Shown one piece after another: positions 1-54,699 of a stretch of 64,000 nt of DNA. The number at the start of each line of letters is the position of its first letter. Position 1 is the stretch's first letter. Source of the stretch: Deroplatys truncata. Its lineage: Eukaryota; Arthropoda; Insecta; Mantodea; Mantidae. The position numbers and the translations under genes are program-made. The DNA is taken from NCBI GenBank assembly GCA_030765065.1, contig CM060984.1:82299988-82363987 (forward strand), given 5' to 3'. The notes beneath the pieces are model-generated. The model had not been told where the DNA came from. It saw only the letters and a program-made list of their open reading frames with translations, and searched no databases.

Positions 1-504
1 ACTGCTGTAGAATAATTTCATAAAGAGCGGAGGGAGATAAATGAAATTTAAAGAAATTGTCATTCAAATTTAAAAGACAGCTAATCACTCATTAAACATA
101 AAATTGGTAAATTAATAACAGCTTGCACAGAGTAACTGTGGCAACAGTGCAATCCATTTTACTTGTAATATCTTTTGGTACGAGATGCTCTATAGATATT
201 GTGTATACTCTACAGAAAACGTTTTGACACCAATCTTTTAATTGCCTCTCTCCAAGGCTGTGGGACGTGGACATGACATAAAGAAAAAGTATGTCAGAAC
301 CAAAACCGCCTGCATAAAAAGACATATGAGAATGTAACTTTAAAAATTGTATTTTTTTTATTGCTAACAACCAAAATAAATCAACACATCTATGATAATG
401 GCTGCATATTTGCAATTTGCCATTAGGATCAACTGACGAGCAGAAATTCTGTATTTGTAGTTTATTAATCACCACAATCAGTTGTATGCATGAACTATGC
501 AGTT

Positions 505-560
505 GCAAACATCTACATATATAATGGGACAGTAGCAAACATCTACATATATAATGGGAC
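505..560. repeat. Two-copy 30-bp tandem repeat
   Basis: A 26-bp segment beginning GCAAACATCTACATATATAA occurs at 505-530 and again at 535-560, a 30-bp period. It is a small local duplication in otherwise featureless AT-rich DNA. I see no gene in 1-650. Confidence 0.9.
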
Positions 561-659
561 TAATTGGTGACCCATTATGTGGTATTTGTAACTCCTATTC
601 TAATTGTGTATAGCACTACAGGCGGTGGACACTGATGATACATGAAATGATTATTAGAA

Positions 660-830
660 AACGAAACATTCCAGGTCTAAGTTAAGGGTACCTCATCATC
701 ATTTGCCAGTTTTGACGACTGAGGAAAACCCGGAAAAAACAGTCATGGAATATAGACCTGGCAGGACTTGAATAACAGACTATGTTCACAAGTCTGTGCC
801 TTAACCACCTTGCCTACCCATGTCAATGTG
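660..830 (-). mobile_element. tRNA-derived SINE (Leu/Ser-like head)
   Basis: Read on the minus strand, the segment begins GGTAGGCAAGGTGGTTAAGG, which resembles the start and A box of a Leu/Ser-type tRNA. About 35 nt further on, TATTCAAGTCCTGCC resembles a B box. The non-tRNA body lies toward lower coordinates and includes a CCCGGAAAAAAC stretch. The head is too diverged to be a working tRNA gene, so a SINE fits best. The 3' limit is uncertain. The DNA from 830 to 1640 holds no recognisable gene. Confidence 0.6.
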
Positions 831-1648
831 GAGTGTCAAAAGCCATTTCAGACATTCCATAATTATGTACTTGCATTTTGCAAGGTGTAAGATAATTACT
901 GCTGCATGCTTGCTTTTCGCTCCAGAAGACATTAAAATAACAAAACACCAAGACTTTCAATCATGAGTCATTGATCAATGCAGCAGAATAGTTTATAGAC
1001 CATTCCTATACTGCGAGTGCCACGTTGAAATGTTCAGGTTTTGGAAGGAAAAAGAGCAAAATGGTGAAGTGCAGGGCAAGGTAAAAGTATATGTTTTTCT
1101 CACTGGTGCTGGATCCTTCATTTTCTTACTTCTGCTATACATTTTATATTTTCGGATGGATATGTCTTCGGCCATTGCATGAAGAACCAGCATTCTGGTC
1201 CATTGACTGGAAAATATTTTTATTTGTATAGCATAGTACTTGATTAGAATCCACAAAAATGTTAAAAACATTCAAAATTGAGTAAATGAAGTGTGAAACT
1301 TGTACAAGTGAAACAGGTACAGGGGCTTTATCCTCATTTTCACTCTTATCCCTTTAGGTGTGTATAGTTTGGTATTCTCTGTTTACTCACGCAGAATGTC
1401 CAATATGCTAAAGGAACCCCAAAATACAGTACACATCAAGAGAGACAAAGTTGTACTCCACTACAGTGGAACTTGTAATTTCTTTGATCTTGGGAAACAC
1501 ATACTTTAATTCATGAAGACTGCAAAAGGCTACATTAAGTATTATCCTTTCAATCCATTCTGCTATTTTAATACTATGGAACAACGCAACCCAACAAATT
1601 ACTTAGGACTATGTTCTGCCAATTGTCTTTTACTGTTAAAATACTTAC

Positions 1649-1817
1649 TCCTCATGTTCACAAGAAAGAAATTCATGCTTCTCGTGCGCACATTTGTAGT
1701 ACCATGGTGCTACATCAGCTCTACAGGCACGGTACTTTATCAACAAATGTGCACAATAATCACGATCTTTTAAGGGCAGCTTGGCAGCTTCCATTTCCTC
1801 AGGAGTAGCAATCATTT
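1649..1817 (-). CDS. NDUFB7: NDUFB7 exon 2 (complex I B18 subunit)
   Basis: NDUFB7 is an accessory subunit of mitochondrial NADH dehydrogenase (complex I), facing the intermembrane space and built on a twin CX9C CHCH fold. This exon encodes the core: EMIATPEEMEAAKL, then DYCAHLLIKYRAC, then YYKCAHEKHEFLSC. The two cysteine pairs (C-X9-C each) form the CHCH domain. The acceptor TTTTAG precedes the exon and the donor GTAAGT follows it at 1648-1643. The exon enters in phase 1, joining exon 1 to give ...KRR-E-MIA, and leaves in phase 2 after CEHE-GA, as expected for the Asp-Tyr-Val that normally follows. The stop read directly after CEHEE lies in the intron and does not end the gene. Confidence 0.93.
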
Positions 1818-2645
1818 CTAAAACCAAAATTAACCACTTATATATCTATTATTCAATATAATTTTATCATTTGCATCAATGTCAGCATCTTTAACTTAGC
1901 AAATTTATGTATCAGGTATTATTAACACCTCACCAAACTTGGTTACACAAGTTGATTTGCATCAATATTGCCAACTATTGGTGATGAGGATAGCCAAAAG
2001 TGGCCAGAAATGGCTAAGTACTGAACAGCTTATAAATAGTCACATAGTCGTTACTTCGGAACCTCCCTATCCCCCACAGACACCAAATGTGCAAATTTTG
2101 GGAAATCAGAGATTGACTTACATCTTTTCTTTAACCTATTCGAATCATTTTCATTTAAGTAGCTATACATAACAAACCTCTTTTTGATATTTTAGTGATT
2201 TTAATTTAAAAATTGGACAATTAAAACTAAAAATGGTTAGAAATAGTTTAATATTTTGGAAAATGGCTAAAATTTACTGTGGGTAAAATTTAGGATGGCT
2301 AGAAATGCATTTAATAGTCTCTTTCACAAACTAGTGACAGTCTCCTAAAAAAAAGGCTAGATTTAACTATAAAAGACTTATATTGGCATCGCTAATACGC
2401 ATCTTTTACTTAACCTCTTAAGCTTAATATACAGTCGCAGAAATAAATATCGCCAAGAGGTCCATTTCAGATGACCTGTCACGGTTTTCAGTTACATCCC
2501 TAACATAACTTTCCATATTCTTTTTACGTACTTGCTTAATCAATAGATGTGCATAACTTGCAAGGATCAGCTTGTAGTTCCGATGAATGTTAGTTACGAA
2601 TATAATGATTAGTTTAAATACATTTTAGTTAACCTACAATCTCAC
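1818..2645 (-). other. NDUFB7: NDUFB7 intron 1
   Basis: An 828-bp GT-AG intron with donor GTGAG at 2645-2641 and acceptor TTTTGGTTTTAG ending at 1818. It is AT-rich, and I recognise no transposon or RNA gene inside it. The open frame 1939-2172 on the plus strand has no recognisable content. Confidence 0.85.
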
Positions 2646-2754
2646 CTCTTCGTTTTCTACCATTTGGGAAACCATACATTGGATCAAATGAAGGTGGGTG
2701 CTCAGGATTTGGAAACCCTACTGGATCTCTATATAGTGCCCAAGCGTTTCCCAT
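2646..2754 (-). CDS. NDUFB7: NDUFB7 exon 1 with start codon
   Basis: The exon encodes the N-terminus MGNAWALYRDPVGFPNP followed by a Pro-rich segment with PSFDPMYGFPNGRKRR. The initial MG is the usual myristoylation-type start of this family, and the DPMYGFP block matches the conserved PDYGFP-like region of NDUFB7. The exon holds 36 codons plus one base, and the donor is GAG|GTGAG. I chose the ATG at 2754 because the longer upstream reading gives no family-like residues and MG-start is the rule. The last exon, with the charged helix after the CHCH domain, is not recognisable at 1-1640 and is probably beyond the window edge. Confidence 0.93.
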
Positions 2755-2871
2755 ACTTTCTACTTGATTGACAGCACAAAATAACGAAATTAAACCCCAG
2801 AGTGTAGACAAAATGTAGACTTTTATAAATCAGTTAATCCAGACCACGAAGGTCATCAGCTGAGCGGAAAC
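2755..2871 (-). promoter_or_regulatory. NDUFB7 5' leader region
   Basis: This 117-bp stretch lies directly upstream of the NDUFB7 start codon and ends at the 8-bp target duplication (2864-2871) of the inserted hAT-like element. It is probably 5' UTR or core promoter. It is duplicated almost exactly at 7468-7575, where it runs on without interruption into the sequence that here lies beyond the transposon at 6593. No TATA box is evident. Confidence 0.6.
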
Positions 2872-2994
2872 CACAGAACAGCAAACTATTAGAAGTGCAA
2901 CTCTCGTGTTAAACGTTGGAAACACGAGGGCGATCGCAGCGTGAGTACTGATCTGCGATGGAACTAAACTATGAAAAATCGTGCTCTCGGATGA

Positions 2995-3002
2995 TGACGT
3001 CA
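2995..3002. promoter_or_regulatory. CRE palindrome TGACGTCA in element left arm
   Basis: A perfect ATF/CREB-type site, TGACGTCA, lies about 240 bp upstream of the NDUFB7 start, inside the transposon. The wider segment 2888-3035 aligns with the displaced flank 6625-6745, which carries the same site at 6710-6717. Activity is an inference. Confidence 0.6.
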
Positions 3003-4624
3003 CTCGTAGCTACTACAGCTGTATTTTTCATACCTGCCTAGCTGTCTACTCAGCTGATCATATGTTCCAATATTGTATCACTACTGACGACGTACAAAGT
3101 TAATTACGTGAGCTTCAACAATCATGATTGCACTTGGAGTTATTCATATTTCTTTTTAAAGGAGTCGATTAAGGCTCACATAAAATAACTTGTCACTGTC
3201 ATCTGTAGCAATACAATATTAGAACACAATTAAGATCAGTTGAAAACTCACAGCTAGGCTAGTATGAAAAACACAACTGTTTATTCCTGTGTAACTTATT
3301 AAATTATCCAATAGTCGGCACATACATTGCTTTTTATACAATATTATTGGGGTTAATAGTGGTTGCTGAATGTTTCTATGTCATAATACATAATGGTCAC
3401 ATTTAAATTTTTGAGAGTGAATGAGATCCAGCACCTTGCAATAATTTCTTCTGCATGCTTCATAGTAAAATCTTTTGCACTTAAACTGCCTCCATGGTTT
3501 GTTTGAACTTCCAACCAACAGTAGGATGTGGAATTTGACAGGAAAATTGGAAGAATAACCATGTTTGACACTGTTATTTTATTCTACTCTAGATAGCGCA
3601 ATATAATTTGACATAACTTAAATCCATTTCCTACAAAGAAACTTCTGCACACATTATATGCAATAGTGTAGCTATTGTTTGTCATTCACTAAATTGCTAT
3701 TAGCAGTGCAATAAATGTCATTAGCATGTTTCACCACACCATTTAACACTATTAATGTCATTGTCACTCTTTGTGCTCTGACTTGAAGCACCATCACTGG
3801 ACACAAATAACCACAACTTAACTCCAGCTTTCCATTGTGTATATCCTAGAATTAAATAGAACACACATGTTTAAGCTACCCTTAAAAGTAGGTTTCTGAA
3901 AAGAGAAATTGCTTACATTAAGGAAAAATTTGTGGTTACAAACACCTTGTGATTACATTACACACTATCCACTGTAAAACAGAGTTCTCTCTGATGTAAA
4001 CAAAGCATATGCTTCCTCTTGTCTTGAAACTAAGCACTACGCTTATGCGAATGTAAATAGTTCCTTAAACGTATTGTGTCATGAAATATTGGAGTAGGAA
4101 AGGTAAAGAACTACACATTTTATTGTGATTATTCGTAAGAACTCATTGTTAAAGGTTATGGATATATAGTAATTGTTAAGAGATTACAAAATATGATTTT
4201 CTTAATTCTACCTGCTATTGCATTAACAATTAAAGAGTATCTTTTTGTTAATTACCAACTGTATGGATGACTGCTATTCTCTTGCCTATATGAGAAATGC
4301 GGCAATGAATTCGCAGCGGTGCTATCTGAGTACCAAATAAACTCTTTGCATAACACAGGAAATATGATAAGCAAACAGTCATTCATAATACGCTAGCACT
4401 CATATGCTCAGCTCAGGTCAAATCTTCGATTTTATCAGTTAGTGTTTGAGTTGCCATGACAAAGAAGAAGTGCATAGTGTGAATAAGCTGTTTTAACACA
4501 AAACTGGGAAACCGTTAAAAAGTGGCAAAAAGTTTGGTTGATAAAGTGCTAAATGAGAAGGAAATAGCACTTTTTATTGTAAAACCACCACCACTTTGTG
4601 TTACTTGAACAAAATAAAATTCAG

Positions 4625-5020
4625 TATATGCAAAGGATCCATGGATCTTTTCATTGAAGGTTCAATGAATCAGGTCTTTTGAAGGATCCTTCGAAATGTT
4701 ATTTATAGTGAAATTTTAAACACTTTTCATTAAAAAAATTACTAACCTTCTGTGAATTAGAAAACTAAGCTTATATATATATAAATAAACAAACCTAATG
4801 CTAACCTTCCATAAATTCAGAAACCTAAGCTTATATAAAAAAAACCTAACCTCCCATAGTAACTTGGATGCAATGTGCTGTATATGAAAAGCGTTTAAAA
4901 TAATCAGTGTGTTAAAATGTTCACTATAAATAACAGATCAAAGGATCATTCAGAAGATCCAATTCATTCAAAAGATTCATGGAACCTTCACTGAAAAGAG
5001 CCATGGGTTGTTTGCATATA
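4625..5020. mobile_element. Long-TIR MITE nested in copy 1
   Basis: The left end TATATGCAAAGGATCCATGG and the right end, read in reverse, TATATGCAAACAACCCATGG, begin imperfect inverted repeats of about 110 bp. The arms include ATCTTTTCA, GAAGGTTC and GTTATTTATAGTGAA. With TA taken as the target duplication the element is about 392 bp, fitting a Tc1/mariner-type MITE. Between the arms are two tandem AT-rich units sharing AATTCAGAAACCTAAGC-like sequence. The same MITE lies in copy 2 at 21121-21515. It is absent from the diverged inverted copy at 17.4-18.8 kb. Confidence 0.75.
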
Positions 5021-5029
5021 CACAATAGT

Positions 5030-5140
5030 GGATGAGTATATACAATCAGACAAAAAATTCAATGCCATGCCTGGGATTCAAACCAGCAATCTTTAACTTG
5101 CCATACCACTGCTCTGCCATCTAAGAATTTCTCTACTCAC
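5030..5140 (-). mobile_element. tRNA-derived SINE fragment in copy 1
   Basis: Read on the minus strand, TTAGATGGCAGAGCAGTGG forms a good A box and GGTTTGAATCCC a near-perfect B box, at tRNA-like spacing. There is no tRNA-like acceptor stem pairing, so this is a SINE head rather than a tRNA gene. It adjoins the MITE at 4625-5020 and is repeated in copy 2 at about 21526-21640. Confidence 0.6.
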
Positions 5141-5968
5141 AGTTAGCTATTTTCATAAGTATTCTACAAATGATTCATCATATATCGTGATCAACTTCAT
5201 GTTTATCATATGTGTTAACTTAAAAGGCTTCAATACATTTAAAAAATATTAAATGCCCATTACTTCAAAACCTTTGATTTTTGCACAAAAACAACACGAT
5301 CATTTAAATGCCTATACATTTCTTATAATAAATATCCTGCAACTTAATTACTACTGCACAATGTATCTTTAAGGGAAGATTTTGTATCATCAAAATTGCT
5401 ACAAAGTTTAAATGGTAGAAAACAGACACGAAAGATTGAAACCACTTTGGAATTTCAAAGCCTCAGAACACATACTGAAGCTGCTAATTTCACTCAAAAC
5501 AAACACTTCAGTTATTCTTGGAAACAAATGCTTTTGAGCATCTGTAATAACAGATTACAAGGACATTGCCAAAAAAGCTACCAGAATTTCTATTTTCATA
5601 TAACAAGCCCAGTTCAAAAAAGGACATAGCGGCAGTTAGATAAAAATGCCCAAAAGAGGGTGAATTACTGAAATATATGTGAATGATATCAAATATCTTT
5701 CTTCCTTCTGTATTAGAAAATTTCATTTGGGCACTGTCTTAAAAGAATTATAGTATCATTAGCATGCTATCCTTGACAGTTAGTGTGTGAGTCCACCAAT
5801 AATCCTACATTTTTTAATTATACAAGAGTATCACTCGCATGATCTGCATCTATGTGTTTGAAAATTAGCACAGTAACATGCTAATTAATTTGCATTAAAG
5901 GTTGATTTTACCTTACCTACTTTTGGCTGTGATCTCCATCCATCAATTATGAAGTGCAAACACGAAAA

Positions 5969-6006
5969 TTAATCGTATATTCCACTGTCTGGATGGCTCA
6001 CAATAT
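5969..6006 (-). CDS. Putative element ORF, exon 3
   Basis: The predicted last coding exon of a short spliced ORF within the hAT-like element. The acceptor TTTCAG precedes it, and it continues in phase as D-IVSHPDSGIYD then stop. It resembles the start of exon 2 (ATA..TTGAGCC.TCCAGACAG in both), suggesting that exon 3 arose by local exon duplication. A donor-like GTAAGG follows near 5930, so the transcript may splice further. Not recognised as any known family. Confidence 0.35.
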
Positions 6007-6109
6007 CTGAAACGTAAATTAGGACAATATAAAATTCAGCAAAACTAAGAAGCTCTTAAAAACTTAACCTTTCAGCCAGCACTCTCATGCTGGAAACTTA
6101 ATAACATAC

Positions 6110-6205
6110 CTTCAGATTCTATGTCACCATTCGGGACTCGAACCACAACACTGGAAGGAATGTAAATCGTAGGCGTATCCCCTCTGTCTGGACGGCTCAA
6201 TGTAT
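6110..6205 (-). CDS. Putative element ORF, exon 2
   Basis: A 96-nt exon with acceptor TTTTCAG and donor GTATG. In the frame set by exon 1 it reads TLSRPDRGDTPTIYIP then SSVVVRVPNGDIESE, with no stop. The same exon and splice sites are present in copies 2 and 3 with substitutions. No domain is recognised. Confidence 0.4.
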
Positions 6206-6356
6206 CTGAAAATTAATTCGTTATATAAAAATGTTGCAACACACAGTAACCAATCAGTTTTCTTACTCATTCCACGAATATCACTGAAGTTAATAGAAAA
6301 TACCAATATTACAACAAATATACATTCAATCAGAAATAGCGTAAATGTATGATTAC

Positions 6357-6447
6357 CGTCTCGGCTTTGCTCCTGGTGAAAAAACTTCGGACGAAAGCTT
6401 CCAGCTATAAAAATCCAAGATGGTCCCTTTCTTCGTGCCTCTGCCAT
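6357..6447 (-). CDS. Putative element ORF, exon 1
   Basis: The exon starts at an ATG in AACTAAATGGCAG and encodes MAEARRKGPSWIFIAGSF then RPKFFHQEQSRD. The donor is GACG|GTAATC. Exon 1 ends in phase 1 and joins exon 2 in an open frame; the whole predicted product is 74 aa. Copy 2 lacks two bases after the ATG, so its frame shifts. Copy 3 keeps the frame with MARKKGPSWIF. The basic, aromatic N-terminus could be part of a transposase or a captured exon, but I do not recognise it. Confidence 0.4.
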
Positions 6448-6592
6448 TTAGTTCGTTACGAACGTCGAAACTTGAAACAGCCAATCAGAAAATTCGCCTT
6501 TCCCGCAAAAGTACAACTAGTGACACACCGTGTCCATGTGGGGAGTTAGTGCCCTCGGTTTCCACTTAGCCAATACCACCATCACCCCTGTG

Positions 6593-6760
6593 GCGGACAC
6601 CCCCACCCGCAGAAAACCAAAGTAGTGATCACCTAGTGCAACCTTAGCGTTAAACGGTAACAACTCGCAAGTGATCGCAGTGTTAAATGTTAATAGCGCT
6701 CTGGAATGCTGACGTCACTCATGGCTACGACCACAGCCCACTACACTACAGACCTGAGCG
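6593..6760 (-). promoter_or_regulatory. Displaced upstream region of NDUFB7 with CRE
   Basis: The sequence beyond the transposon includes GACACCCCCACCCGCAG, CTAGTGCAACC..AGCGTTAAACG and TGACGTCA at 6710-6717. The duplicate at 7468-7632 shows it was originally continuous with the NDUFB7 leader. It is thus probably the gene's old promoter, now 3.7 kb away. It aligns with the left end of the inserted element. The DNA from 6760 to 7467 is AT-rich with nothing recognisable. Confidence 0.55.
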
Positions 6761-7467
6761 CTGATTTCAATATGGCGGTGGGCAACGAATTCCACAGTTC
6801 CAAGCAAAAATACATAGGAACGTGAAATTAAAAAACTAAGTTAATTTAAAATAATAGCAACTTGACACCACTAGAACACAAAGATAACATTAAAGAAATA
6901 ATGATAATTTATCGTTTTTATAAAAACAAGTATTTGTGCATGTAATTGGATTTGAAAAAATTAAAATAGTGCTATAAGTATAAAACACAGCAGAATGCGT
7001 AGCTGTAGTCGTTATGAGCCTATCGAATAATGTAACTGAAGCAGTATTATGGGTACTTTGTTTTAATAATGATAACAAATAAACTAAAACAGAACATTAT
7101 TACTATGCAGTTAAGTTAAACAGCATTAAGTTATACAGGTGCGCATAAATGCCAATTCACCTTATTACAAAGAAAGTGGCTCAACATATGACAATTTTAA
7201 ATTTAATTATGCTCTGAACATTTGTGTAAATGTTTAGGGACAAAATATACTTTTCACTAAACTCCTTACCTTTATATATAATCATATGTTTACAAGCTTA
7301 GCTTCAAATGGAATGAAAATAAAACAGCTAGATAACACAAATACCAACATTTCAGTTTATTAGGACTTACCTACCTATTGAATACTATTGTAAGAACTTA
7401 TTCTCATGCTTTATATATTTCATTACAACAGCAATAGCAAAATTGTACAAAGAAGTATTTTTGTTTC

Positions 7468-7632
7468 TACTTGATTGACAGCACAAAATAACGAAATTAA
7501 ACCCCAGACAGTACACAAAATGTAGACTTTTATAAATCAGTTAATCGAGACCACGAAGGTCATCAGCTGAGCGGACACCCCCACCCGCAGAAAACAAAAG
7601 TAGTGATCACCTAGTGCAACCCTAGCGTTAAA
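7468..7632 (-). repeat. Partial duplicate of NDUFB7 leader (empty site)
   Basis: 165 bp matching 2757-2871 joined directly to 6601-6660, with only a few mismatches. It holds the hAT insertion site in uninterrupted form (GAGCGGACACCC). It begins just upstream of the NDUFB7 ATG and contains none of its coding sequence. It therefore proves both the target duplication and the original continuity of the locus. Confidence 0.85.
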
Positions 7633-7990
7633 CGTGTACAAGTCAATACACACTGACAAACTTTTATAAGATTTCTTTTGTATTTATCGAAAATTAAAGT
7701 CAACACAAAAGCTAATAGTCCATCCACTAAATCTGTTAATGTTACTACTGGCAATATACTAAAGCTTGCCACATACTTATTAGTTTAGTAAAAAGAGTAA
7801 AATTACTTAAATATATTATGCGAACCAAAGTCGATAGCCTCAGTGTGTTCATTATAAAATATATACAACAATTCATATTGCAGAAAAAAGTGGCTTTTAA
7901 TACACACATTATTACATGTGAATGTCATAGAAATACTGAAAGTATTGTTTCCTTCCTCATAGCAAGCACAAAATACTCTTATGAATTCAC

Positions 7991-10740
7991 TCACTGGTCA
8001 GTTTCTTTTTTTCTTTTATCGTAAGACTTTTGTTTCTTATCCTCAGTCACCATTTTGGAGTAACTATTTAGAATAATTTTGGAAATAATTGAGCATACAA
8101 CATGAAGATAGTCTTCAAATTTATGAGTGAATTGATTGATGATCGTTTCCCTGGTTTCATCCATAATGTTTATTATATAGGGACTGCACAAATTCTTCAA
8201 AAATGTAAGATGATTACTGCTTTTAATAAAATCCACACTTTCACTTAGCCTTGAAATAATTGGATACACAACCATGTTACTTTTACGCAATATATCTGGA
8301 TTTCTTTAGAGAACTTCTACTTAAGATCAATCAGCCTTGCCGCACCTTCAAATTCATACTCTAAAGTGTAATTTAAAATCAATAACTCAATGCATTTGGG
8401 GCATATTATACCATTTGCTACCTTGAAAGCAGCATAACCTGTAATGTAAAACACGATAGGCATTACATCATTATTCACCAGTTTTGCAATTTCAATTCCT
8501 GTTACACAAAGGCAGCAATTAGGGAACATTTTTGTTTTCAGAATCTGCACACACATTTAAGCTTCTTACTGGAATGTTACCATATTTTGATGAAAATAAA
8601 AGAAAATTATTAATTCTGATCTTTCTCTCACTCATATAGCTATTGGAGAAAGATAAAATGATTACTGCCAGACAACTGGCGGTAAAAACTGAATAGCTCT
8701 TCAAGAGGATCTATTTGAAACTTGCCAAACAGAACGTAGTTTACTTTTAATTCTTTTAGAACATAATTTGCAAAACCATAAAGGCCTGAGCAGTCTGCAT
8801 TATTGCATCAAATAATGCAAATAATGCAATGTCAGCCCTTGGTATACATTCCCCCTACAGGGCTGTTCCCAATTGCACAACCATGCTGAAATTTTATTCA
8901 GGAAAATTAACTCTTCTTGCTCGATGGCAAAGACAGTTTTGTAATCAGCTTTTTTATACCTTACATCCTTATATGGAAACTTAACATTCACAATATTCCA
9001 CCATTTTAGGATAATATTTAAAAACTCTGCTGTTTCTCCATAACCATTATTGCATTCTAAGAGGGCATTAATATTTTCATAATTGAAAATTTTACACACC
9101 AGACTCAGTTTTTGTGTTTCAATTTTTGATGCATAAACAGCTTTTGCATTTAACTTAATTTCAGCAATTCATTCTTTTCTTTGTGATAAAGTGATCTGAG
9201 GTGGCCAAAATTGGTACTCTTAATTATATCTGCATATTCAAAACCAGGAAAATTAAATGTAAGATCTTTCTGATTTATCCAATTATTCCTTATATTTTTG
9301 GAAATATGCTTAGTATCATAGAGCAAAAACAGCGGCTGTGATTGGCTAAAGGGATTTACTACTGAATAATAGAATAATAACTAAATGTATGTAGTGTGAA
9401 TTTGTGAAACTGGTCTGATTTGTTGATCTGATTATTATCAGCTATAAGACTGATTACTTTTACATCAAGTTTGCCAAATTCGCAGAGAATGTTACTCACA
9501 GTAGCATGTAAAAAGTCCCCAGAATTTCTACTGACTGGCAAAATGGCATTGACATTTGAATAATTACCAAATGCAGCATTTACTGAAAACACTTGAGCTG
9601 TTTTAGCAAGCTCATGTGTATTTATTGCACTAGTTCCTACCAATTCACCACCTTTAAAAGTTAACTCTGGTGAAATATAAACTTCATCCATCAAAAGATT
9701 AACAACTCTTTCCTCAAGTTTCAAGGAGCAAATGCGACCAATAATGTAGGAATTGCTAATATTAAAATTGCTGTCATTACATTTATACTGGCAGCCAGTT
9801 TTCTTAAGTTACTTGAATGTGGAAGAGTTAGTACCTGTGACTGACGTATGGTTCTGTAACATGCAGGAGATATCGGGAACATCTTAGGGCCAACCTAAGA
9901 AGATCTGATGAAAATCTGTACCTTTCCTTCTTAAAGGAGAATAATTCTATCTGTTCTGTAAGGACACTTAACCTCAATTTTTACTAGCATCTAGCACCTC
10001 ATGTTCTTTTTAACAATTTCACTGCTGCAGGAAGTTTACTTTCTTTAAAATTTGACAAAGGCACACTACACAATTAAAATAATGCATGCACCTGAGATTA
10101 CTCCAAGATAACACTAAATTCGAGATTCAGTTCATTAGGATTCAATTCTTTGACTATATACACTGTAAAGCACTTATCACCAGAAACCACAAAACTACTA
10201 ACAACATAAGGCACTAATACTGTATTTATTTTTAGCACTGTAATGACACTAACACTAATTGAAAGTGCCCAATCTTTTCTCTCGTTGACACATTTTTTTA
10301 TATGAACGGTTGCATCTTCATATGTGAGTAACTTGTTATTTTCTAATTCCTTATCATATGAAGCTATACTCTGATCCAGAGCTGTTTGCAGTGCTTCATC
10401 TTATCTTTCCTCTCTTGTTCTTTTCTTTGGAAGTGAAAAGCTTAAGTGGGGTGTACTTTCATTAACAACTGTAGGAAAAGCATCATCGTTAAGGCAAGGA
10501 TTAGCACGTGGAATGAATAGCACTCGTCCATCTTTCCTGCCATTTATCCTCTCGAGTAACCATTTATTCTAGAAAGTGTCTAATGTAGACTCTAGCATTT
10601 TCAGTGAATTCAAAATTCTGCCTGCGTATTCTGCTTAGCCATAATTTTCGTCGTTCCTCATCTCTGGGAAGCCTAAAGCAAGTTACATACGGAGGCTCAT
10701 AATTCGATCTGCAACCTGATACTGAACACTTAAAAGGCAT
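7991..10740 (-). pseudogene. P-element-like THAP transposase, decayed
   Basis: The order along the minus strand follows P-element/THAP9 transposases. An N-terminal THAP domain is at 10740-10566. An RNase H-like catalytic segment at 9724-9359 has LLMDEVYISPELTFKGGELV and the D of SLIADNNQINKSDQF. A helical/GTP-binding-insert-like region is at 9099-8800. A C-terminal block at 8556-8317 contains YITGYAAFKVANGI followed by CPKCIELLI, and a basic tail is at 8290-7991. Frames are broken between all blocks by stops and indels, so no intact enzyme is encoded. No terminal repeats were identified. The DNA from 7633 to 7990 holds nothing else. Confidence 0.85.
10564..10740 (-). pseudogene. THAP zinc-finger domain of P-like transposase
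   Basis: Starts MPFKCSVSGCRSNYEPP and continues with CFRLPRDEERRKLWLSRI, then FTENARVYIRHF before a stop. THAP fingers bind DNA through C-X2-4-C-X35-50-C-X2-H. Here C5, C10 and H55 are kept, but the third ligand (Cys in the usual VC..HF motif) is Tyr52. The conserved Pro and Trp (LPRD, LW) are present. Confidence 0.85.
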
Positions 10741-13459: not shown

Positions 13460-16445
13460 GTGATCGCATACTCGCAAATGTACACACACTAATTTTTCCC
13501 TGTATGTGAAAATGCATATGCCTCTATAGGTATGTATACAAGAAAGGAAAATGTCAAACTTTCTTCTGTATGAAGAGCTTATTTAAACTCCCCGCGCCTT
13601 CTTTACCAAACGCCAGTGCATTTGGTCAACGAGCTGTAGAGACGCGCAAACGAGATTTTGCGACTGGCGAAGGAAACTTTAGGGCGGGAGGCCGCGGGGA
13701 GCGGGGCAACGCTTGTATTTGAAAGTACGGCGAGTTAACGCAGTGTAATCGACAAGCCCAAGAGTTGCGATTGTTATGGCGCAAGCGCAGTGCGTTCCCG
13801 TATAACTTCATTTCCTTCTGTGCCTCCCTTGCTACGAACATTTCCCTCGCTGTTGTCTAGCAGAAGTTGCGCTTAGCCAACTTTACGTTTCTAAGCACAA
13901 TCTAGCCATTTTCTGTATTAACGTGAGAGTTATGTTAATGTTACAAACACATTACATCTATTTTAATTAAACCATTATAAATGCATATAATTATTCTTCA
14001 TAATATAATAAGGTAAATATTTCAGTTAGGGTTAGTTAATTTCTTAGGGTGTTTTCATTTTTGTTTGTTATGTTTGTGTCCTGGTGGCTATTGGTATGCA
14101 TTTGAATCGGCCCATAGTAGTAGATTTGAATCTGTGTAAGTGTGAAAATGAATAGCGTTGCGAAACTAAAAGAGATAAACCCTTCGGGTTTATCCTTAGA
14201 AGAAAAGATGCAAATTAAAAACGAAGGCAGACCGCTGCCAACAATCGATTTAGTTCAAGTAACTAATTGTAAAGGGAAGACAGTTACAAGGAAGTTTAAC
14301 GAAAGTATGTATAAAAGTTGCTCGTGGATATGTGCTTGTGAAGCAACTAACCGCTCTTCTGTTTTCCGTGTTTATTGTTTGCGAGTGAGAGAAACGGCAC
14401 CTGGACAAATAATGGTTGTGGTGATATTGGTCATTTAAAACAAAAAATGGCAAAACATGAGAGCTCAATTGCCCATATGAATTGCGAATTAGAACTAAAT
14501 GTTCTGGGAAAATATAATATATCTTAGCAGTTAGACAGTGCTTTTAGGCGTAATGTAGAATAACACAATGGGGAAGTTACTAAGAACAGATATGTTTTGT
14601 CGCAGATAATTAATTGCATAAAATTCTGCGGCGCGTTTGAGTTAGCTCTCAGGGGACACGACGAAAGTCAAAGTTCATTGAACCCTGGAGTGTTTCGTGG
14701 ACTGATAAACTTCACCGCAGAATTAGATTCCGCGGTGAAAGATCACCTCAAGCAGGCCAGCGTTTTTCGAGGAACGTCGAAAGAAATACAGAATGATCTG
14801 TTGCAGTGTATGCTTGACATATGTCAAGAAGAAATTAAGAGAGAAATTTCTAAAGCAGACTATATCGCTGTAATTGTCGACGAAACATCTGATATTTCAT
14901 CTCTTTTTCAAATGGTGGTTGTGTTTCGTTACCTGCTACCAAATGGTAAGCCAGTGGAACGATTCTGAACATTTTAAAATCCAGATGGACAAGATGCGAA
15001 CGTTCTCTCCCTATGTATAAAAAACGCGCTCTCAATGGTGGTATCTGAAACTGAAAAAAACAAAGCCGTGTCTCAGAGATACGACGGCGCAAATGTTATG
15101 AGTGGGCAGCATGCTGGTGTACAAGCATTGGTGAAGAAAGATTACCCTTTCGGTCACTACATTTATTGCTATGCATACAAATTGAATTTAATTATGGCGC
15201 AAGCAGCAAGTCAAAATACGGAAGTTCGAATATTTTTCGAGGACTTAAATGAAATTCCTGCATTCTTTTCTAATTTTCCGCAACCAGTTCGTGTTTCGAA
15301 TGAGATTGTAGGTAGAAGGATACCTGGAGTTTCAACAATAAGATGAAATTTCAAATCCCGATTAGTGCAAACAGTTTTCGAGCATAAGGAATCAATTACC
15401 GAATGTTTAGAGACCATAGAGAGAAGCAGTAAACAAAGCAACACAATAGTTCAGGCTAGAGGACTGCCCTTAAACTGATAGAGCCAGACTTCTTGTCCTG
15501 GCTATAAATATTCTTCATTATAATGCCACATGTGGATGTGCTATCTAATCAGTTCCAAAGACGATCCATTGATGCAGTATTTGCAAAATCTGCCATTGAA
15601 ACATTTGAAAGCGCAATAAAGGAAGTTAGACGAAAGATTGATGATATAGCCGAGAACCCATGTTATTCAGCAGAGGCTGAAAAACGACGTAAGGTTGACC
15701 ATTTGTCAAGAAAGTCTGCAGCAAAAGAGGTGTGTGACGTGATTCTGCTACAAGCAAAGGAGAGGTTTTCATTTCACAATCATCTTGTCACGTCAAATCT
15801 CTTCATTTGCAAAAGATTTGACGAATACAACAAAACGTATCCGGAGAAACACATGCATACCTTAACTGAAGCATTTCCATTCATATACACGACCAGATTA
15901 CGAACGGAGTTGCAATTGATGTACATGCGCAGAGAATTCAGAAATGTATCGGGTGCTGTAGATCTTTTAGGGTTTATTGTGGAAAATAATCTAGAGAAAA
16001 CGTTCAGTGAAGTTTTTAAATTACTGAAAATACTTGTAATAGTGCCAATGCCAACTAGTGAAGCTGAAAGGTGTTTTTCAAGTTTAAAGCGCATAAAAAC
16101 CTTCCTTCGGTCCACGATGTCAGAAGAACGCCTGGCTGCTCTAGCCATGTTGTCAATCCAGAAAAGCCTTGTAAGGGATACTTCAGACTTCAATGAGAGA
16201 GTAATAGACAAGTTTGCAACTAAAAAGGAGCGCCGAATGGACTTCATGCATCGCCATGTCCTGTAAGCTGATGTGAAACAGTGAAAGAGACTGGAAGCTG
16301 TAAGAGATTTTTGGTGAGTCAACTTTTCTTTTTTGCATAGATTGTGTGTATATGTGTGTGCGTGCATGTGTGTGTGTGTGTGTGTGTCAGGAAGATAGCA
16401 TGTAACAAACTGCACACCCATTGCAACAGGTCACGAGCTGCCACT
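13460..16445 (+). mobile_element. Decayed hAT transposon (ZMYM1-like type)
   Basis: The element is absent from the paralogous half B, which reads straight through at 32764-32795. The right end, read inward, is CAGTGGCAGCTCGTGACC, a typical hAT terminus. The left terminus is less clear and may be truncated; CAGTGCATTTGG at 13615 is an alternative. A CpG-rich 5' region (13560-13860) probably held the promoter. The coding remnant is at 14148-16266, and a (TG)n tract lies at 16345-16388. Confidence 0.7.
14148..16266 (+). pseudogene. hAT transposase pseudogene (TTF-zinc-finger/ZMYM1-like)
   Basis: Pieces in order: MNSVAKLKEINPSGL with KSCSWICACEATNR, from the TTF-type zinc-finger region; GHLKQKMAKHESSIAH after a frameshift; and YIAVIVDETSDISS, whose Asp is the first catalytic acidic residue of the RNase H fold. 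Next come SGQHAGVQALVKK.YP and YCYAYKLNLIM, typical hAT blocks. The C-terminal dimerisation domain contains VPMPTSEAERCFSSLKRIK and RLAALAMLSIQK, with the final stop at 16264-16266. At least five frameshifts or stops separate the pieces, so no product is made. Confidence 0.88.
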
Positions 16446-17383: not shown

Positions 17384-18775
17384 CACAGGGATGAAGGTTG
17401 GATTAGGAAACTGGGAACACAGGGCACTAACTCCCCACATGAACACGATGTGTCACTAGTTGTATTTTTGCGGGAAAGGGGATTTTCTGATTGGTTGTTT
17501 CAAGCTTCGAAGTTCGTAACGAACTAAATGGCACGCAAGAAGGGGCCATCTTGGATTTTTATAGCTGAAAGTTTTTGTCTGATGTTTTTTAATCAGGAAC
17601 AAAGCAGAGACGGTAATCATACATTTACGCTATTCCTGGTTGAATGTATATTTTTTGTAATATTGGTATTTTCTATTAACTTCAGTGAAATTCGTAGAAT
17701 GAGTTAGAAACCTTTGATAGGTTATTGTGTGTTACAGCATTTTTATACAACGAATTAATTTTCAGATACATTGAGCCGTCCAGACAGAGTGAATATGCCT
17801 GCGATTTACATTTCTTCCAGCGTTGTTGTTTAAGTCCCGAATGGTGGCTTAGAATCTGAAAGTATGTTATTATGTTTGAGCAACATAAAATGATAGTGCT
17901 GGATGAAAGGTTAAGTTTTTAAGAGCTTCTTAGTGTTGCTGAATTTTATATCGTCTTGATTTACTTTTCAGATATAGTGAGTCATCCAGATAGTGGAATA
18001 TAGATTAATTTTCCTGTTTGCACCACATAAGATGAGTGGAGATCACAGCCAAAATGGGTAAGGTAAAAATCAACCTTTAATGCAAATTAAATAGCATGTT
18101 ACAGTGCCAATATTCAAACACGTAGATGCAGATCATGCGAGTGATGCTCGTGTATAATTTAAAAATGTAGGATTATTGGTGAGCTGACACACTAACTGTC
18201 AAGGATAGCATGCCAATGATACTGTAATTCTTTTAAGGCAGTGCCCAATTGAAATTTTCTAATACAGAAGGAAGAAACATATTTGATATCATTCACATAC
18301 ATTTCAGTAATTCACTTGCTTTTGGGGATTTTTATCTAATTGCCACTATTATGACCTTTTTTGAACTGGGCATGGTGTATGAAAATAGAAATTCTGGTAG
18401 CTTTTTTGACAATTAGTGTCCTTGTAATCTGTTTGTACGAGTACTCAAAGCATTTGTTTCCAAGGAAAACCAAAAGTGTTTGTTTTGAGTGAAATTAACA
18501 GCTTCAATGTGCATTCTGAGGCTTTGGAATTCCAAAGTTGTTTCAATCTTTCGTGTCTGTTTTCTACCACTTAAACTTTGTAGCAATTTTGATGATACAA
18601 AATTCTTCCCTTAGAAGATACATTGTGCATAGTAATTAAGTTGCAGGATATTATATGAAATGCATAGGCATTTAAATAATGTGTTGTTTCTTGTGCAAAA
18701 ACCAAAGATTTTGAAGTAATGGGCATGTAATATTTTTAAATGTATCTTATTTAACACTTTATCAACCAAACACGA
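17384..18775 (+). mobile_element. hAT-like element, copy 3 (inverted, partial)
   Basis: The segment starts CACAGGGATGAAGG, a diverged form of the right terminus of copies 1 and 2, and runs in inverted orientation through the sequence equivalent to 6592-5240. It then jumps to the equivalent of 4555-4528. It lacks the MITE and SINE block, so either those inserted later into the lineage of copies 1 and 2, or the block was deleted here. Divergence from copy 1 is much greater than between copies 1 and 2. The far end and the expected second target duplication (GTCACGAG) are missing. Confidence 0.75.
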
Positions 18776-19072: not shown

Positions 19073-19879
19073 CTTTCAATCACAGAACAGCAAACTATTA
19101 GAAGTGCAACTCTCGTGTTAAACGTTGGAAACTCGAGGGCGATCGCAGCGTGAGTAGTGATCTGGGATGGAACTAAACTGAAAAATCGTGCTCTCGGATG
19201 ATGACGTCACTCGTAGCTACTACAGCTGTATTTTTCATACCTGCTAGCTATCTGCTCAGCAGATCATATGTTCCAGTATTGTATCGCTACTGACGACGTA
19301 CAAAGTTAATTACGTGAGCTTCAATAATCGTGATTGCACTTGGAGTTATTCATATTTCTTTTTAAAGGAGTCGATTAAAGCTCACATAAAATAACTTGTC
19401 ACTGTCATCTGTAGCAATACAATATTAGAACACAATTATGGTCAGTTGAACACCTCACAGCTAGGCTAGTATGAAAAACACAACTGTTTATTCCTGTGCA
19501 ACTTATTAAATTATCCAATAGTCGGCACATACATTGCTTTTTATATAATATTATTGGGGTTAATAGTGGTTGCTGAATGTTTCTACGTCATAATACATAA
19601 TGGTCACATTTAAATTTTTGAGAGTGAATGAGATCCAGCACCTTGCAATAATTTCTTCTGCATGCTTCATAGTAAAATCTTTTGCACTTAAACTGCCTCC
19701 ATGGTTTGTTTGAACTTCCAACCAACAGTAGGATGTGGAATTTGACAGGAAAATTGGAAGAATAACCATGTTTGACACTGTCATTTTATTCTACTCTAGA
19801 TAGCGCAATACAATTTGACATAACTTAAATCCATTTCCTACAAAGAAACTTCTGCACACATTATATGCAATAGTGTAGC

Positions 19880-20455
19880 TATTGTTTGTCATTCACTAAA
19901 TTGCTATTAGCAGTGCATTAAATGTCATTAGCATGTTTCACCACACCATTTAACACTATTAATGTCATTGTCACTCTTTGTGCTCTGACTTGAAGCACCA
20001 TCACTGGACACAAATAACCACAACTTAACTCCAGCTTTCCATTGTGTATATCCTAGAATTAAATAGAACACACATGTTTAAGCTACCCTTAAAAGTAGGT
20101 TTCTGAAAAGAGAAATTGCTTACATTAAGGAAAAATTTGTGGTTACAAACACCTTGTGATTACATTACTATTGTTTGTCATTCACTAAATTGCTATTAGC
20201 AGTGCAATAAATGTCACTAGCATGTTTCACCACACCATTTAACACTATTAATGTCATTGTCACTCTTTGTGCTCTGACTTGAAGCACCATCACTGGACAC
20301 AAATAACCACAACTTAACTCCAGCTTTCCATTGTGTATATCCTAGAATTAAATAGAACACACATGTTTAAGCTACCCTTAAAAGTAGGTTTCTGAAAAGA
20401 GAAATTGCTTACATTAAGGAAAAATTTGTGGTTACAAACACCTTGTGATTACATT
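19880..20455. repeat. 288-bp tandem duplication in copy 2
   Basis: Two units, 19880-20167 and 20168-20455, both starting CTATTGTTTGTCATTCAC. Copy 1 has one unit at 3670-3957. The near-identity of the units shows the duplication came after copy 2 inserted, or shortly before. Confidence 0.9.
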
Positions 20456-21120
20456 ACACACTATCCACTGTAAAACAGAGTTCTCTCTGATGTAAACAAA
20501 GCATATGCTTCCTCTTGTCTTGAAACTAAGCACTACGCTTATGCGAATGTAAATAGTTCCTTAAACGTATTGTGTCATGAAACATTGGAGTAGGAAAGGT
20601 AAAGAACTACACATTTTATTGTGATTATTCGTAAGAACTCATTGTTAAAGGTTATGGATATATAGTAATTGTTAAGAGATTACAAAATATGATTTTCTTA
20701 ATTCTACCTGCTATTGCATTAACAATCAAAGAGTATCTTTTTGTTAATTACCAACTGTATGGATGACTGCTATTCTCTTGCCTATATGAGAAATGCGGCA
20801 ATGAATTCGCAGCGGTGCTATCTGAGTACCAAATAAACTCTTTGCATAACACAGGAAATATGATAAGCAAACAGTCATTCATAATACGCTAGCACTCATA
20901 TGCTCAGCTCAGGTCAAATCTTCGATTTTATCAGTTAGTGTTTGAGTTGCCATGACAAAGAAGAAGTGCATAGTGTGAATAAGCTGTTTTAACACAAAAC
21001 TGGGAAACCGTTAAAAAGTGGCAAAAAATTTGGTTGATAAAGTGCTAAATGAGAAGGAAATAGCACTTTTTATTGTAAAACCACCACCACTTTGTGTTAC
21101 TTGAACAAAATAAAATTCAG

Positions 21121-21640
21121 TATATGCAAAGGATCCATGGATCTTTTCATTGAAGGTTCAATGAATCAGGTCTTTTGAAGGATCCTTCGAAATGTTATTT
21201 ATAGTGAAATTTTAAACACTTTTCATTAAAAAAATTACTAACCTTCTGTGAATTAGAAAACTAAGCTTATATATATAAATAAACAAACCTAATGCTAACC
21301 TTCCATAAATTCAGAAACCTAAGCTTATATAAAAAAAAACCTAACCTCCCATAGTAACTTGGATGCAATGTGCTGTAAATGAAAAGCGTTTAAAATACTC
21401 AGTGTGTTAAAATGTTCACTATAAATAACAGATCAAAGGATCATTCAGAAGATCCAATTCATTGAAAAGATTCATGGAACCTTCACTGAAAAGAGCCATG
21501 GGTTGTTTGCATATACACAATAGTGGATGAGTATATACAATCAGACAAAAGATTCAATGCCATGCCTGGGATTCAAACCAGCAATCTTTTACTTGCCATA
21601 CCACTGCTCTGCCATCTAAGAATTTCTCTACTCACAGTAA
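21121..21640. mobile_element. Nested MITE and SINE in copy 2
   Basis: The same long-TIR MITE (21121-21515) and tRNA-derived SINE head (about 21526-21640, minus) as in copy 1, at matching places. Both were therefore present before copies 1 and 2 separated. Confidence 0.75.
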
Positions 21641-22523
21641 GCTATTTTCATAAGTATTCTACAAATGATTCATCATATATCGTGATCAACTTCATGTTTA
21701 TCATATGTGTTAACTTAAAAGGCTTCAATACATTTAAAAAATATTAAATGCCCATTACTTCAAAACCTTTGATTTTTGCACAAAAACAACACGATCATTT
21801 AAATGCCTATACATTTCTTATAATAAATATCCTGCAACTTAATTACTACTGCACAATGTATCTTTAAGGGAAGGATTTTGTATCATCAAAATTGCTACAA
21901 AGTTTAAATGGTAGAAAACAGACATGAAAGATTGAAACCACTTTGGAATTTCAAAGCCTCAGAACACATACTGAAGCTGCTAATTTCACTCAAAACAAAC
22001 ACTTCAGTTATTCTTGGAAACAAATGCTTTTGAGCATCTGTAATAACAGATTACAAGGACATTGCCAAAAAAGCTACCAGAATTTCTATTTTCATATAAC
22101 AAGCCCAGTTCAAAAAAGGACATAGCGGCAGTTAGATAAAAATGCCCAAAAGAGGGTGAATTACTGAAATATATGTGAATGATATCAAATATCTTTCTTC
22201 CTTCTGTATTAGAAAATTTCATTTGGGCACTGTCTTAAAAGAATTTTAGTATCATTAGCATGCTATCCTTGACAGTTAGTGTGTCAGTCCACCAATAATC
22301 CTACATTTTTTAATTATACAAGAGTATCACTCGCATGATCTGCATCTATGTGTTTGAAAATTAGCACAGTAACATGCTAATTAATTTGCATTAAAGGTTG
22401 ATTTTACCTTACCTACTTTTGGCTGTGATCTCCATCCATCAATTATGAAGTGCAAACACGAAAATTAATCGTATATTCCACTGTCTGGATGACTCACAAT
22501 ATCTGAAAAGTAAATCAGGACAA

Positions 22524-23043
22524 CGCCATTATGCTCTAGTTTTGGCCCGCACAGCGATGACGATGTCGTATTAAAGAAGTTGCTTTACCGTAACAGTGGT
22601 AGATAGTTAACGCAAGCGTACATAAAAAACAACCCTAAGCTAAGGCTAACCTTCCCTGAATTCAGAAACGTAAGCTTATATAAAAAGAAGTAATCCCAAC
22701 CTAAGGCGACGTTTGTTTTGTTTCGTACGCGATTCGCCTATATAAGTAAAACACCGTCGAGGGGCGGGTAGGTGGACACAAGCTATTGAACAGATCACAT
22801 CTACTTCTAAACTCACTCACAAGGTAAATTATTCGCTTTTCTTTGGCTAATTTAAGGCTACGTTTGTTTTGTTTCGTACGCGATTCGCCTATATAAGTAA
22901 AACACCGTCGAGGGGCGGGTAGGTGAGCACAAGCTATTGAACAGATCACAACTACTTCTAAACTCACTCACAAGGTAAATTATTCGCTTTTCTTTGGCTA
23001 ATTTAAACTACTTCGACGGGCCACAACTACAGTAGATTAGCCA
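22524..23043 (+). mobile_element. 520-bp insertion with duplicated TATA promoter unit
   Basis: Flanked by CAGGACAA at 22516-22523 and 23044-23051, an 8-bp target duplication; copy 1 has the uninterrupted site near 6016. It contains two tandem 151-bp units (22705-22855 and 22856-23006). Each has CTATATAAG (22738-22746; 22889-22897) followed about 75-80 bp later by AAG|GTAAAT, so each looks like a core promoter plus first exon and splice donor. A single related fragment is at 39190-39289. No coding capacity; origin unknown (LTR-like or captured promoter). Confidence 0.6.
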
Positions 23044-23622
23044 CAGGACAATATAAAATTCAGCAACACTAAGAAGCTCTTAAAAACTTAACCTTTCATC
23101 CAGCACTCTCATGCTGGAAACTTAATAACATACCTTCAGATTCTATGTCACCATTCGGGACTCGAACCACAACACTGGAAGGAATGTAAATCGTAGGCGT
23201 GTCCCCTCTGTCTGGACGGCTCAATGTATCTGAAAATTAATTCGTTATATAAAAATGTTGCAACATACAGTAACCTATCAGTTTTCTACCTCATTCTACG
23301 AATATCACTGAAGTTAATAGAAAATACCAATATTACAACAAATATACATTCTATCAGAAATAGCGTAAATGTATGATTACCGTCTCGGCTTTGTTCCTGG
23401 TGAAAAAACTTGGGACGAAAACTTCCAGCTATAAAAATCCAAGATGGTCCCTTTCTTCGTGCCTGCCATTTAGTTCGTTATGAACGTCGAAACTTGAAAC
23501 AGCCAATCAGAAAATTCGCCTTTCCCGCAAAAGTACAACTAGTGACACACCGTGTCCATGTGGGGAGTTAGTGCCCTCTGTTTCCACTTAGCCAATACCA
23601 CCATCACCCCTATGCTTTCAAT

Positions 23623-23765: not shown

Positions 23766-24633
23766 ATACCTAACCAGTATTGCGTTATGCGTATTACTTA
23801 GAAGTCGCCATAACATTGGATATAATTTCCTTTATGATAATTGAGATGGCATTAATGCAGCCTGCGGCACGTTGCAATTTGAGAAAAAATGTTTAAGTAA
23901 ATTAAGTCAATAATTTTGACTCAAGTACTGATGAATTCGGATTTGGGCCCTTTATGCAAAATTGATGATAAATGCCCCATTGAATATGATAAATGCAATG
24001 AACGTCTTCAGTTGAACGTTAATACAGACTCTAAAAAACACGCATAAACTCCCCCCCCCGATCAATGATTCAATAGCAATTATGCTTCCATTAGTAAAAC
24101 CTAATTGGTTTTAGTTGTATTTCATCTACTCGTACTTCCCACATAATGTAGTAGTGATTTTAATAAGGGAATATTGCAGTAAGTTGAACGTTATGTACAG
24201 AATTCCAAAAGCACGCAGAAGTCTGTTTTTTCTGTTGTAATCATCTAATTCCGACTATGCTTGTATGAGAAAATTCCAAATTCTAGTTGCATGTCCACTC
24301 ACTACCAAGCACGTATGTAACGGTTATAATATTATAATTTTGCAGTATGTCTGTAGGCAAATATTGCATTTTAACTCCCTAAAGCAACATTTTATATTGA
24401 TTGCGAGTTTTAGCCTTAAAATTAGTAGTGAGCCCTTTACATGAACAGCACGAATTATGCATAATTACCCATTTAAATATAATTTTCATTTGTTACATTA
24501 TCGCTATGAGCAAAATAATTTTTGATACAAGAAAACTCTTAAAGCACCATAATTAGCGACACAAAGCTACAATAGTATTTAATTATGATTTGCCATTCGT
24601 CACATAACCTCATTTTAAATCAGCTAAAGCTGA

Positions 24634-29089: not shown

Positions 29090-29649
29090 ATAAATGTTAC
29101 TTCCAGTTTCGCCAACCTCATTTCAGTTGAAAATGTTGGTACTCTACATTGCGCATATTCTTTATCGGCTTCGTTGTTGGCTATCAGCCATGACGTTGAT
29201 TAGTAGTCGTCAACAACAAAACAGCTGAGAATTCTGCATATACAGGTGTAGCTAAGACCAACAATTTGTAATTTTCATTATTTCGTATTTGATAACCTAG
29301 TGTTTTTTCCTCACAAAATTATAGTTTAAGAATTTACACTATTAAACTGCCTTAAGGCAGTAAACATTGTCCCGTAGATTTACAGTTCAGTAGGATAAAT
29401 AAAATATATGTAAATCGGAGCATACCACTTTCTATTAAATTCTCAAAATGTTCTGCTTCACAATAACATAGAAATCAGCTCCTAGAGATTATAAGTATAC
29501 TTAAGTTAATTTCTCAAAAGAATGTTTTATATTTGCTGAAACCACATTTATTGCAAAAGAATTTACCTCCACACTGTTCATAACCTGAACGTTTAACACG
29601 CAATACAGCAATATTTTACGAAGTATCTAGGCATAAGTTTCAGTCTCAA
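29090..29649. repeat. 565-bp duplicated segment, copy 2
   Basis: The partner of 24634-25198 in the same orientation. Upstream (29015-29089) this copy continues an open minus-strand frame (QALADTLPKINEQHASR) that the first copy lacks. Confidence 0.85.
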
Positions 29650-43834: not shown

Positions 43835-43925
43835 CACAGTGGATTTGTGTAAACAACAATCAGATGGGAAAATGGTGGTGGTGAAGAAAATTTCAGTTCC
43901 ACAAATCTCAGGAGAAGAATTGAAG
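43835..43925 (+). CDS. NEK8: NEK8-like kinase exon (N-lobe, beta-3)
   Basis: Encodes TVDLCKQQSDGKMVVVKKIS followed by VPQISGEELK. This is the beta-2/beta-3 part of a NIMA-related kinase; the Lys in VVVKKI is the ATP-anchoring residue. The acceptor TTTATGTTTCAG precedes it and the donor AAG|GTGATC follows. The exon enters in phase 1 and leaves in phase 0. The glycine-rich loop must lie on an upstream exon not found in the window. NEK8 acts at the cilium base in animals. Orthology to NEK8 rather than NEK9 is inferred from the fit of the next exon. Confidence 0.8.
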
Positions 43926-54495: not shown

Positions 54496-54666
54496 GAAGC
54501 TCAAAATGAAATGCATGTTTTGTCATCACTTCAGCATCCCAATGTTATAGAATATTTTGACAACTATTTGGAAAACAATATTCTTGGAATAGTAATGGCA
54601 TATGCCCAAGGTGGAACTCTTAATGACTTCCTTGCAAGACAAAATGGAAATCTCATGACTGAAAAT
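54496..54666 (+). CDS. NEK8: NEK8-like kinase exon (alpha-C to hinge)
   Basis: 171 nt, 57 codons, phase 0 at both ends. The acceptor TTTTCTTCACAG precedes it and the donor AAT|GTAAGT follows. It encodes EAQNEMHVLSSLQHPNVIEY (alpha-C helix; the Glu in NEM pairs with the beta-3 Lys), then FDNYLENN, and the hinge IVMAYAQGGTLNDFL. HPNVIEY and YA.GGTL are characteristic of NEK8. It joins the exon ending at 43925 to give ...GEELK-EAQNE. The catalytic HRD and DFG segments must be on exons beyond the window's recognisable part. Confidence 0.9.
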
Positions 54667-54699
54667 GTAAGTAAACTTTTCTGTTATTAGGCACTACGT

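Follow-up and report, generated by a model that had tools for sequence, protein, structure and literature searches.

Among the closest described systems is P-element homing in Drosophila, in which a transposon with a gene's regulatory DNA inserts near that gene; that is, the carried regulatory DNA can guide insertion (PMC3261919). In the sections of that report drawn on here, homing involves engineered vectors and is regional for en, bithorax, and eve; the smallest en fragment that homes measures 1.6 kb, and among 166 lines with a 181-bp en fragment, none had an insertion near en (PMC3261919). Pack-TIR elements offer another likeness: they are DNA transposons with terminal repeats, target-site duplications, and a short host sequence, found in more than one copy at different sites (PMC8277862). 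The portions of that survey used here report a hAT element with 291 bp of a 5' UTR and none among the birds and insects it covered (PMC8277862). The introduction to the same paper also describes transduction, or end bypass, for P elements, in which host sequence beside the element serves as a terminal repeat and is carried along on transposition (PMC8277862).

Here, we describe a naturally occurring element in a window of 64,000 bases (the whole stretch of DNA analyzed; G+C 33.8%, N = 0) from an animal host, most probably an insect. We posit, and hold somewhat better than even, that the outermost left 143 bp of this element are a copy of a host promoter, captured long ago and later placed before NDUFB7. 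In contrast to the engineered vectors of P-element homing, as described in the sections cited above, we are dealing with a natural element, a 143-bp arm of presumptive promoter derivation, a distance of 9 bp between insertion and homologous stretch, and a single event. Compared with the Pack-TIRs described in the cited portions of the survey, the host-like sequence is terminal and not enclosed by two element ends, and one copy sits beside its presumed source. That survey required host sequence between ends of at least 10 bp each and searched with a source identity of at least 90% (PMC8277862); at this locus, the homology runs from base 3, and identity is 75% (87/116). Finally, end bypass in P elements was seen, according to the introduction cited, on artificial transposase activation (PMC8277862), whereas here it would have to be read from the anatomy of the element.

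The element and its insertion site

The coordinates of the element, its copies, and the adjoining genes are collected in Table 1. Self-comparison of the window delimits the repeat at 2869-6592 and 19078-23614, and the exact edges were set by the target-site duplications. The 8-bp duplication is perfect (8/8) for copy 2 and 7/8 for copy 1; for copy 3, no pair was found. The right end of copy 2 reads CTATG, versus CTGTG in copy 1. A nonautonomous cut-and-paste transposon generating 8-bp target-site duplications is the best explanation for the element. Copies 1 and 2 are ~97-99% alike, and their arms are 95% alike. The left arm is carried by two of the three copies within the window; in copy 3, no left arm was detected (score 34.5, against a shuffle mean of 36 and a maximum of 53.5). 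The presence of the arm in copy 2 bears out the claim, made in a sequence-only reading of this DNA, that the arm belongs to the element; the start given there for the copy 2 arm, 19097, has to be moved to 19081.

Table 1. Features of the locus, with positions in the window
Feature	Position	Strand	Basis or remarks
Transposon copy 1, ends CACAG...CTGTG	2872..6592	+	Limits from target-site duplications and empty-site duplicate
Left target-site duplication of copy 1, GCGGAAAC	2864..2871	.	7/8 identical to right one
Right target-site duplication of copy 1, GCGGACAC	6593..6600	.	Same as empty site 7571-7578
Left arm, promoter-like, CRE TGACGTCA at 2995	2872..3014	+	Homologous to 6610-6731
Foldback, inverted repeat 3015-3118 / 3169-3280	3015..3280	.	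Score 102 vs maximum 50.5 in 300 shuffles
Right arm, common to copies 2 and 3	5233..6592	-	CpG-rich end; three exon-like ORF pieces, GT-AG borders
Transposon copy 2, same left arm, CRE 19202	19081..23614	+	CTTTCAAT on each side
Copy 3, inverted, right arm only, 88%	17384..18745	-	Self-comparison; no left arm detected past 18745
Duplicate of uninterrupted NDUFB7 upstream DNA	7464..7634	+	2757-2872 joined to 6593-6656
NDUFB7 coding exon 1	2646..2754	-	Start codon 2754-2752 (MGNAWALYRDPVGFPNPEHPPSF...); limits approximate; reading frames
NDUFB7 further coding exon	~1645-1817	-	Limits approximate; reading frames
NDUFB7 ATG to element, 117 bp (5' UTR and proximal promoter)	2755..2871	-	Duplicated at 7464-7570
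Native DNA between NDUFB7 and divergent gene, probably their bidirectional promoter	6601..6771	.	CRE at 6710
Probable first coding exon, NEK-type kinase gene (MAVGNEFHSSKQKYIG..)	6772..6821	+	Start codon 6772; frame-compatible; presumptive assignment
NEK-type kinase exon (VDLCKQQSDGKMVVVKKI...)	43835..43925 (about)	+	Pfam and PDB matches of joined product
NEK-type kinase exon (EAQNEMHVLSSLQHPNVIEYFDNYL...)	54496..54667	+	End approximate; Pfam and PDB matches of joined product

The window also preserves the arrangement that preceded the insertion. The duplicate at 7464-7634 matches the DNA on the two sides of the element (116 bp at 95.7% identity and 64 bp at 96.9%) and retains the empty site GCGGACAC; the uninterrupted arrangement thus came first, and the insertion followed it. 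The duplicate is 171 bp long, begins 2 bases before the NDUFB7 start codon, and lies in the presumed divergent gene's first intron. The sequence-only reading had listed 7600-7632 within it among the segments to be aligned; this segment is part of the longer duplicate, which contains the homologous stretch only in its first part, as far as GTTAAACG, and has no CRE.

Several differences between copies 1 and 2 were also observed. Their density follows a U shape along the element: the first 500 bases contain 16, the following 2500 another 16, and the final 721 bases 18, a pattern that would fit homogenization of the middle or faster evolution of the ends. Copy 2 has an internal 290-bp tandem duplication (19879-20168 / 20168-20457, 99.3%) and an extra block of ~520 bp (22522-23044) with a 154-bp tandem repeat (22702-22855 / 22853-23006); this block is missing in copy 1.

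The genes on either side were identified from their products. The protein joined from two NDUFB7 exons matches Pfam NDUF_B7 (E 2.6e-22), with 8esw_B7, the NDUFB7 chain of a complex I structure, as the best PDB match (E 6.4e-34); no last coding exon was identified. The joined product of the divergent gene matches Pfam Pkinase (E 1.7e-14), with NEK1 (4apc_A) as its best PDB match (E 8.9e-14). Simple patterns yielded no glycine-loop exon, such that the gene model is incomplete, and the kinase region with Pfam and PDB matches excludes the first exon at 6772-6821. For these two reasons, we describe the stretch at 6601-6771 only as the probable promoter shared by NDUFB7 and the divergent NEK-type gene.

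Homology between the left arm and the native stretch

The left arm and the native stretch are collinear and in the same orientation. Alignment of 2874-3016 with 6610-6731 gives 87 identical, 29 different, and 33 gap columns (87/116 = 75%); the copy 2 arm gives 88, 28, and 31. Local alignment of 2872-3060 with 6601-6772 scores 85, against a mean of 24.2 (standard deviation, 4.6) and a maximum of 50 in 2000 dinucleotide-preserving shuffles, 0 of which reach 85. Outside the element copies, the native stretch, and the duplicate, the best of 2970 tiles (both strands) scores 37.5. The motifs that had been quoted as shared by 2888-3035 and 6625-6745 are all present and in order, and the CRE-bearing sequence that now adjoins NDUFB7 is indeed homologous to the original upstream DNA. 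AGTGCAAC is found at 2894, 6635, 7613, and 19103 and also at 40212; GTTAAACG at 2908, 6649, 7627, and 19117; and GATCGCAG at 2932, 6673, and 19141, with no other occurrence on the plus strand and none of its reverse complement. The CRE TGACGTCA occurs at 2995, 6710, 19202, and 61713, the last in a context that looks unrelated. With up to 3 mismatches allowed, the window contains 3 matches to the 37-base pattern AATNGNGCTCTNGNATGNTGACGTCACTCNTNGCTAC, against 0.00 expected. A collection of viral contigs gave 0 matches to the CRE block; as the collection is not one of animal genomes, this result carries no information.

Could unrelated promoters have converged on a few factor sites, the CRE among them? 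The best-conserved part is the CRE block, and 75% identity is modest. Nonetheless, the part without the CRE block is significant alone: it and the CRE block score 51.5 each, against maxima of 37 and 34.5, respectively, in 5000 mononucleotide shuffles, and order, strand, and spacing agree across 120-140 bp. Given the separate significance of the non-CRE part, we rejected convergence, to which we assign very little probability. As for base composition, the observed/expected CpG ratio is 1.37 and 1.24 in the arm and 0.93 in the native stretch, versus 0.28 in the middle of the element and 0.48 in the window; these values hint weakly at a promoter-like left arm. High CpG is not special to that arm, since the right terminal arm is also CpG-rich (0.98).

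From the third base of the element onward, the two sequences are homologous, strongly so as far as ~3014-3016; the gain in score with element length flattens at 3016-3020. Copy 1 has the start of its foldback at 3015, and copy 2 has it at the corresponding position, 19222. Inside the foldback, the score creeps up (81.5 at 3035, 82.5 at 3040, and 89 at 3075), and the arm border is thus not perfectly sharp. The earlier limits of 2888-3035 captured a real arm but need correction at both ends, to 2872 (2874 for the aligned homology) on the left and ~3014-3016 on the right. Behind the foldback, the element scores 22.5 against the native downstream DNA (shuffle mean, 22.2; maximum, 36 of 500). On neither strand does the element match the NDUFB7 5' UTR or the divergent exon 1 and intron above the level of 100 shuffles each; only intergenic DNA is therefore common to host and element. 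Capture reaching beyond the promoter was rejected on these shuffle-level scores. Also rejected was later insertion of the foldback into a longer captured stretch: joining the flanks adds nothing (79.5 both ways), and the DNA behind is shuffle-like.

Origin of the left arm

The simplest explanation for strong homology that runs from the third base to the first internal border, and that involves intergenic DNA only, is the joining of a host promoter to an older element. The opposite direction has to be weighed against this. That is, the native stretch might be the remnant of an older insertion of the same element family whose left end was co-opted as a promoter, with a younger copy landing beside it. 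The homology does start at the element terminus, as it would for a solo left end. However, its strong part goes no farther than the internal junction 3014/3015, the element sequence past the foldback does not match the native downstream DNA, and the homologous stretch fills most of the 288 bp that separate the start codons of NDUFB7 and the divergent gene in the empty arrangement. Homology that halts at a structural border is what the joining of a promoter to an older element would produce; it would not be expected had some arbitrary part of the element turned into a promoter. We consider such a remnant unlikely.

The sequence-only reading had offered conversion between the two sequences alongside promoter capture. 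The arm of copy 1 and the native stretch do lie within 4 kb of each other. Copy 2, however, lies at least 12 kb from the native stretch and is at least as similar to it (86.5, versus 81.5 for copy 1). Five arm columns differ between copies 1 and 2; four are in gaps, and the one informative column matches copy 2 to the native stretch. On these two grounds, we rejected conversion, and we regard it as extremely improbable. Promoter capture, the other suggestion, is in our assessment the best reading, with the strong homology stopping where the foldback begins.

The divergence values bear on the age and the source of the arm. Given 75% identity between arm and native stretch versus ~97-99% between copies 1 and 2, either capture is much older than the insertion or the source was another locus or species. 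In the latter case, the arm would come from another gene's promoter or, by horizontal transfer, from a species whose NDUFB7 promoter had been captured. The gap between 75% to the native stretch and 95% between the arms is compatible with such a source, as is the lack of a closer one within the window; conversely, the window holds no other candidate source, and the collinear match is exactly to the stretch that adjoins the element. Such a source is, in our estimation, improbable, although it merits slightly more weight than the co-opted remnant considered above.

How would capture have proceeded? In the model that we favor, sequence would have passed from host to element, and the source promoter would be a homologue of the native NDUFB7/NEK-type intergenic stretch. 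By end bypass, the transposase would have taken host sequence for the element's own left end, such that the flanking promoter traveled along. The native stretch reads CGCAG where the element has CACAG, and we speculate that such a host sequence was accepted as an end. The left and right arms have only CACAG/CTGTG in common (beyond these, the score is 25, against a shuffle mean of 24), as expected if the left end is foreign. End bypass also predicts an older left end, and none was identified. After insertion of the element at its present site, in the same orientation and 117 bp before the NDUFB7 start codon, the arm would serve NDUFB7, and the native promoter would stay with the divergent gene.

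Consequences for NDUFB7

The element inserted 117 bp before the NDUFB7 start codon, leaving 9 bp between it and the homologous stretch; arm and stretch have the same orientation, and the earlier spacing is nearly restored. AGTGCAAC, GTTAAACG, and GATCGCAG in the element are now 140, 154, and 178 bp from the ATG, versus 152, 166, and 190 bp for their native counterparts in the empty arrangement; the corresponding distances for the CRE are 241 and 227 bp. Motif distances in the present and the empty arrangements differ by 7-14 bp. The native stretch at 6601-6771 has been 3.8-4.0 kb from NDUFB7 since the insertion, with its CRE now 3956 bp away and still adjoining the divergent gene. The idea that the native promoter was displaced holds insofar as it was separated from NDUFB7; it was not destroyed and still lies directly upstream of the divergent gene. 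The arm is predicted to have promoter activity and may drive NDUFB7.

If capture is correct, the transposon has a gene's promoter for a terminus and has returned that promoter to the gene in near-original register, and a shared promoter has been split into two. Such an element would be a natural counterpart to P-element homing and would suggest a route by which insertions beside essential genes survive. Should the landing be due to chance, the locus would still exhibit a clear, datable promoter substitution by a transposon.

Chance landing or homing

It is striking that the element came to lie next to its own homologue and in matching orientation. Under uniform insertion, the chance of such a landing is 5e-7 to 1.5e-4, and under an assumed promoter bias, it is 2.6e-5 to 2.6e-3; both are post hoc estimates that rest on assumed copy numbers (100 to 10,000) and genome sizes. 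With three copies in one 64-kb window, the element family may be abundant, and such abundance would weaken the argument from improbability.

Might the element instead have homed by mimicry at its end? We speculate that the transposase, or factors on the shared CRE block, could take the native promoter as a landing platform: the left end would be a copied host promoter, and the element would insert head-to-tail a few bases outside the native one. Each insertion would then give the downstream gene a ready, correctly spaced replacement promoter, and insertion at an essential respiratory gene would be made tolerable. A linotte fragment is said to home site specifically. The en fragments described in the sections of the P-element report cited above (181 bp without homing and a 1.6-kb minimum) speak against homing of a 143-bp arm by tethering; we considered recognition of an end-like sequence by the transposase as an alternative to tethering. 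Overall, we regard natural homing of this kind as doubtful.

Element class and neighboring repeats

Like members of the hAT superfamily, the element has 8-bp target-site duplications; its ends, which have only CACAG/CTGTG in common, may be short imperfect terminal repeats of the hAT kind. No transposase domain was identified among the ORF pieces tested. The usual hAT terminus differs from the element's terminal CACAG. Self-comparison of the window found no partner element with these ends, and hAT-type transposase pieces at 14564-16266 have no sequence in common with the element.

In the right arm, three exon-like pieces with GT-AG borders lie at 5921-6448 on the minus strand, the second and third of which share D(T/I)(L/V)S(R/H)PD. 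Their 75-aa joined product matched no Pfam family at E 0.01, and copy 3 is 84.5-90.7% identical in them, which is not above the introns. These pieces are possibly another captured gene start.

Other repeats surround the element. A broken hAT-type transposase with DUF4371 and Dimer_Tnp_hAT pieces (14130-16266) lies inside a larger repeat, which recurs at 30601-33534 without that transposase. P-element-like transposase remnants occupy ~7991-10740 on the minus strand, with a TNP-like RNase H domain at 9359-9808. Finally, a direct repeat of ~566 bp (92.6%) is found at 24633-25197 and 29090-29649.
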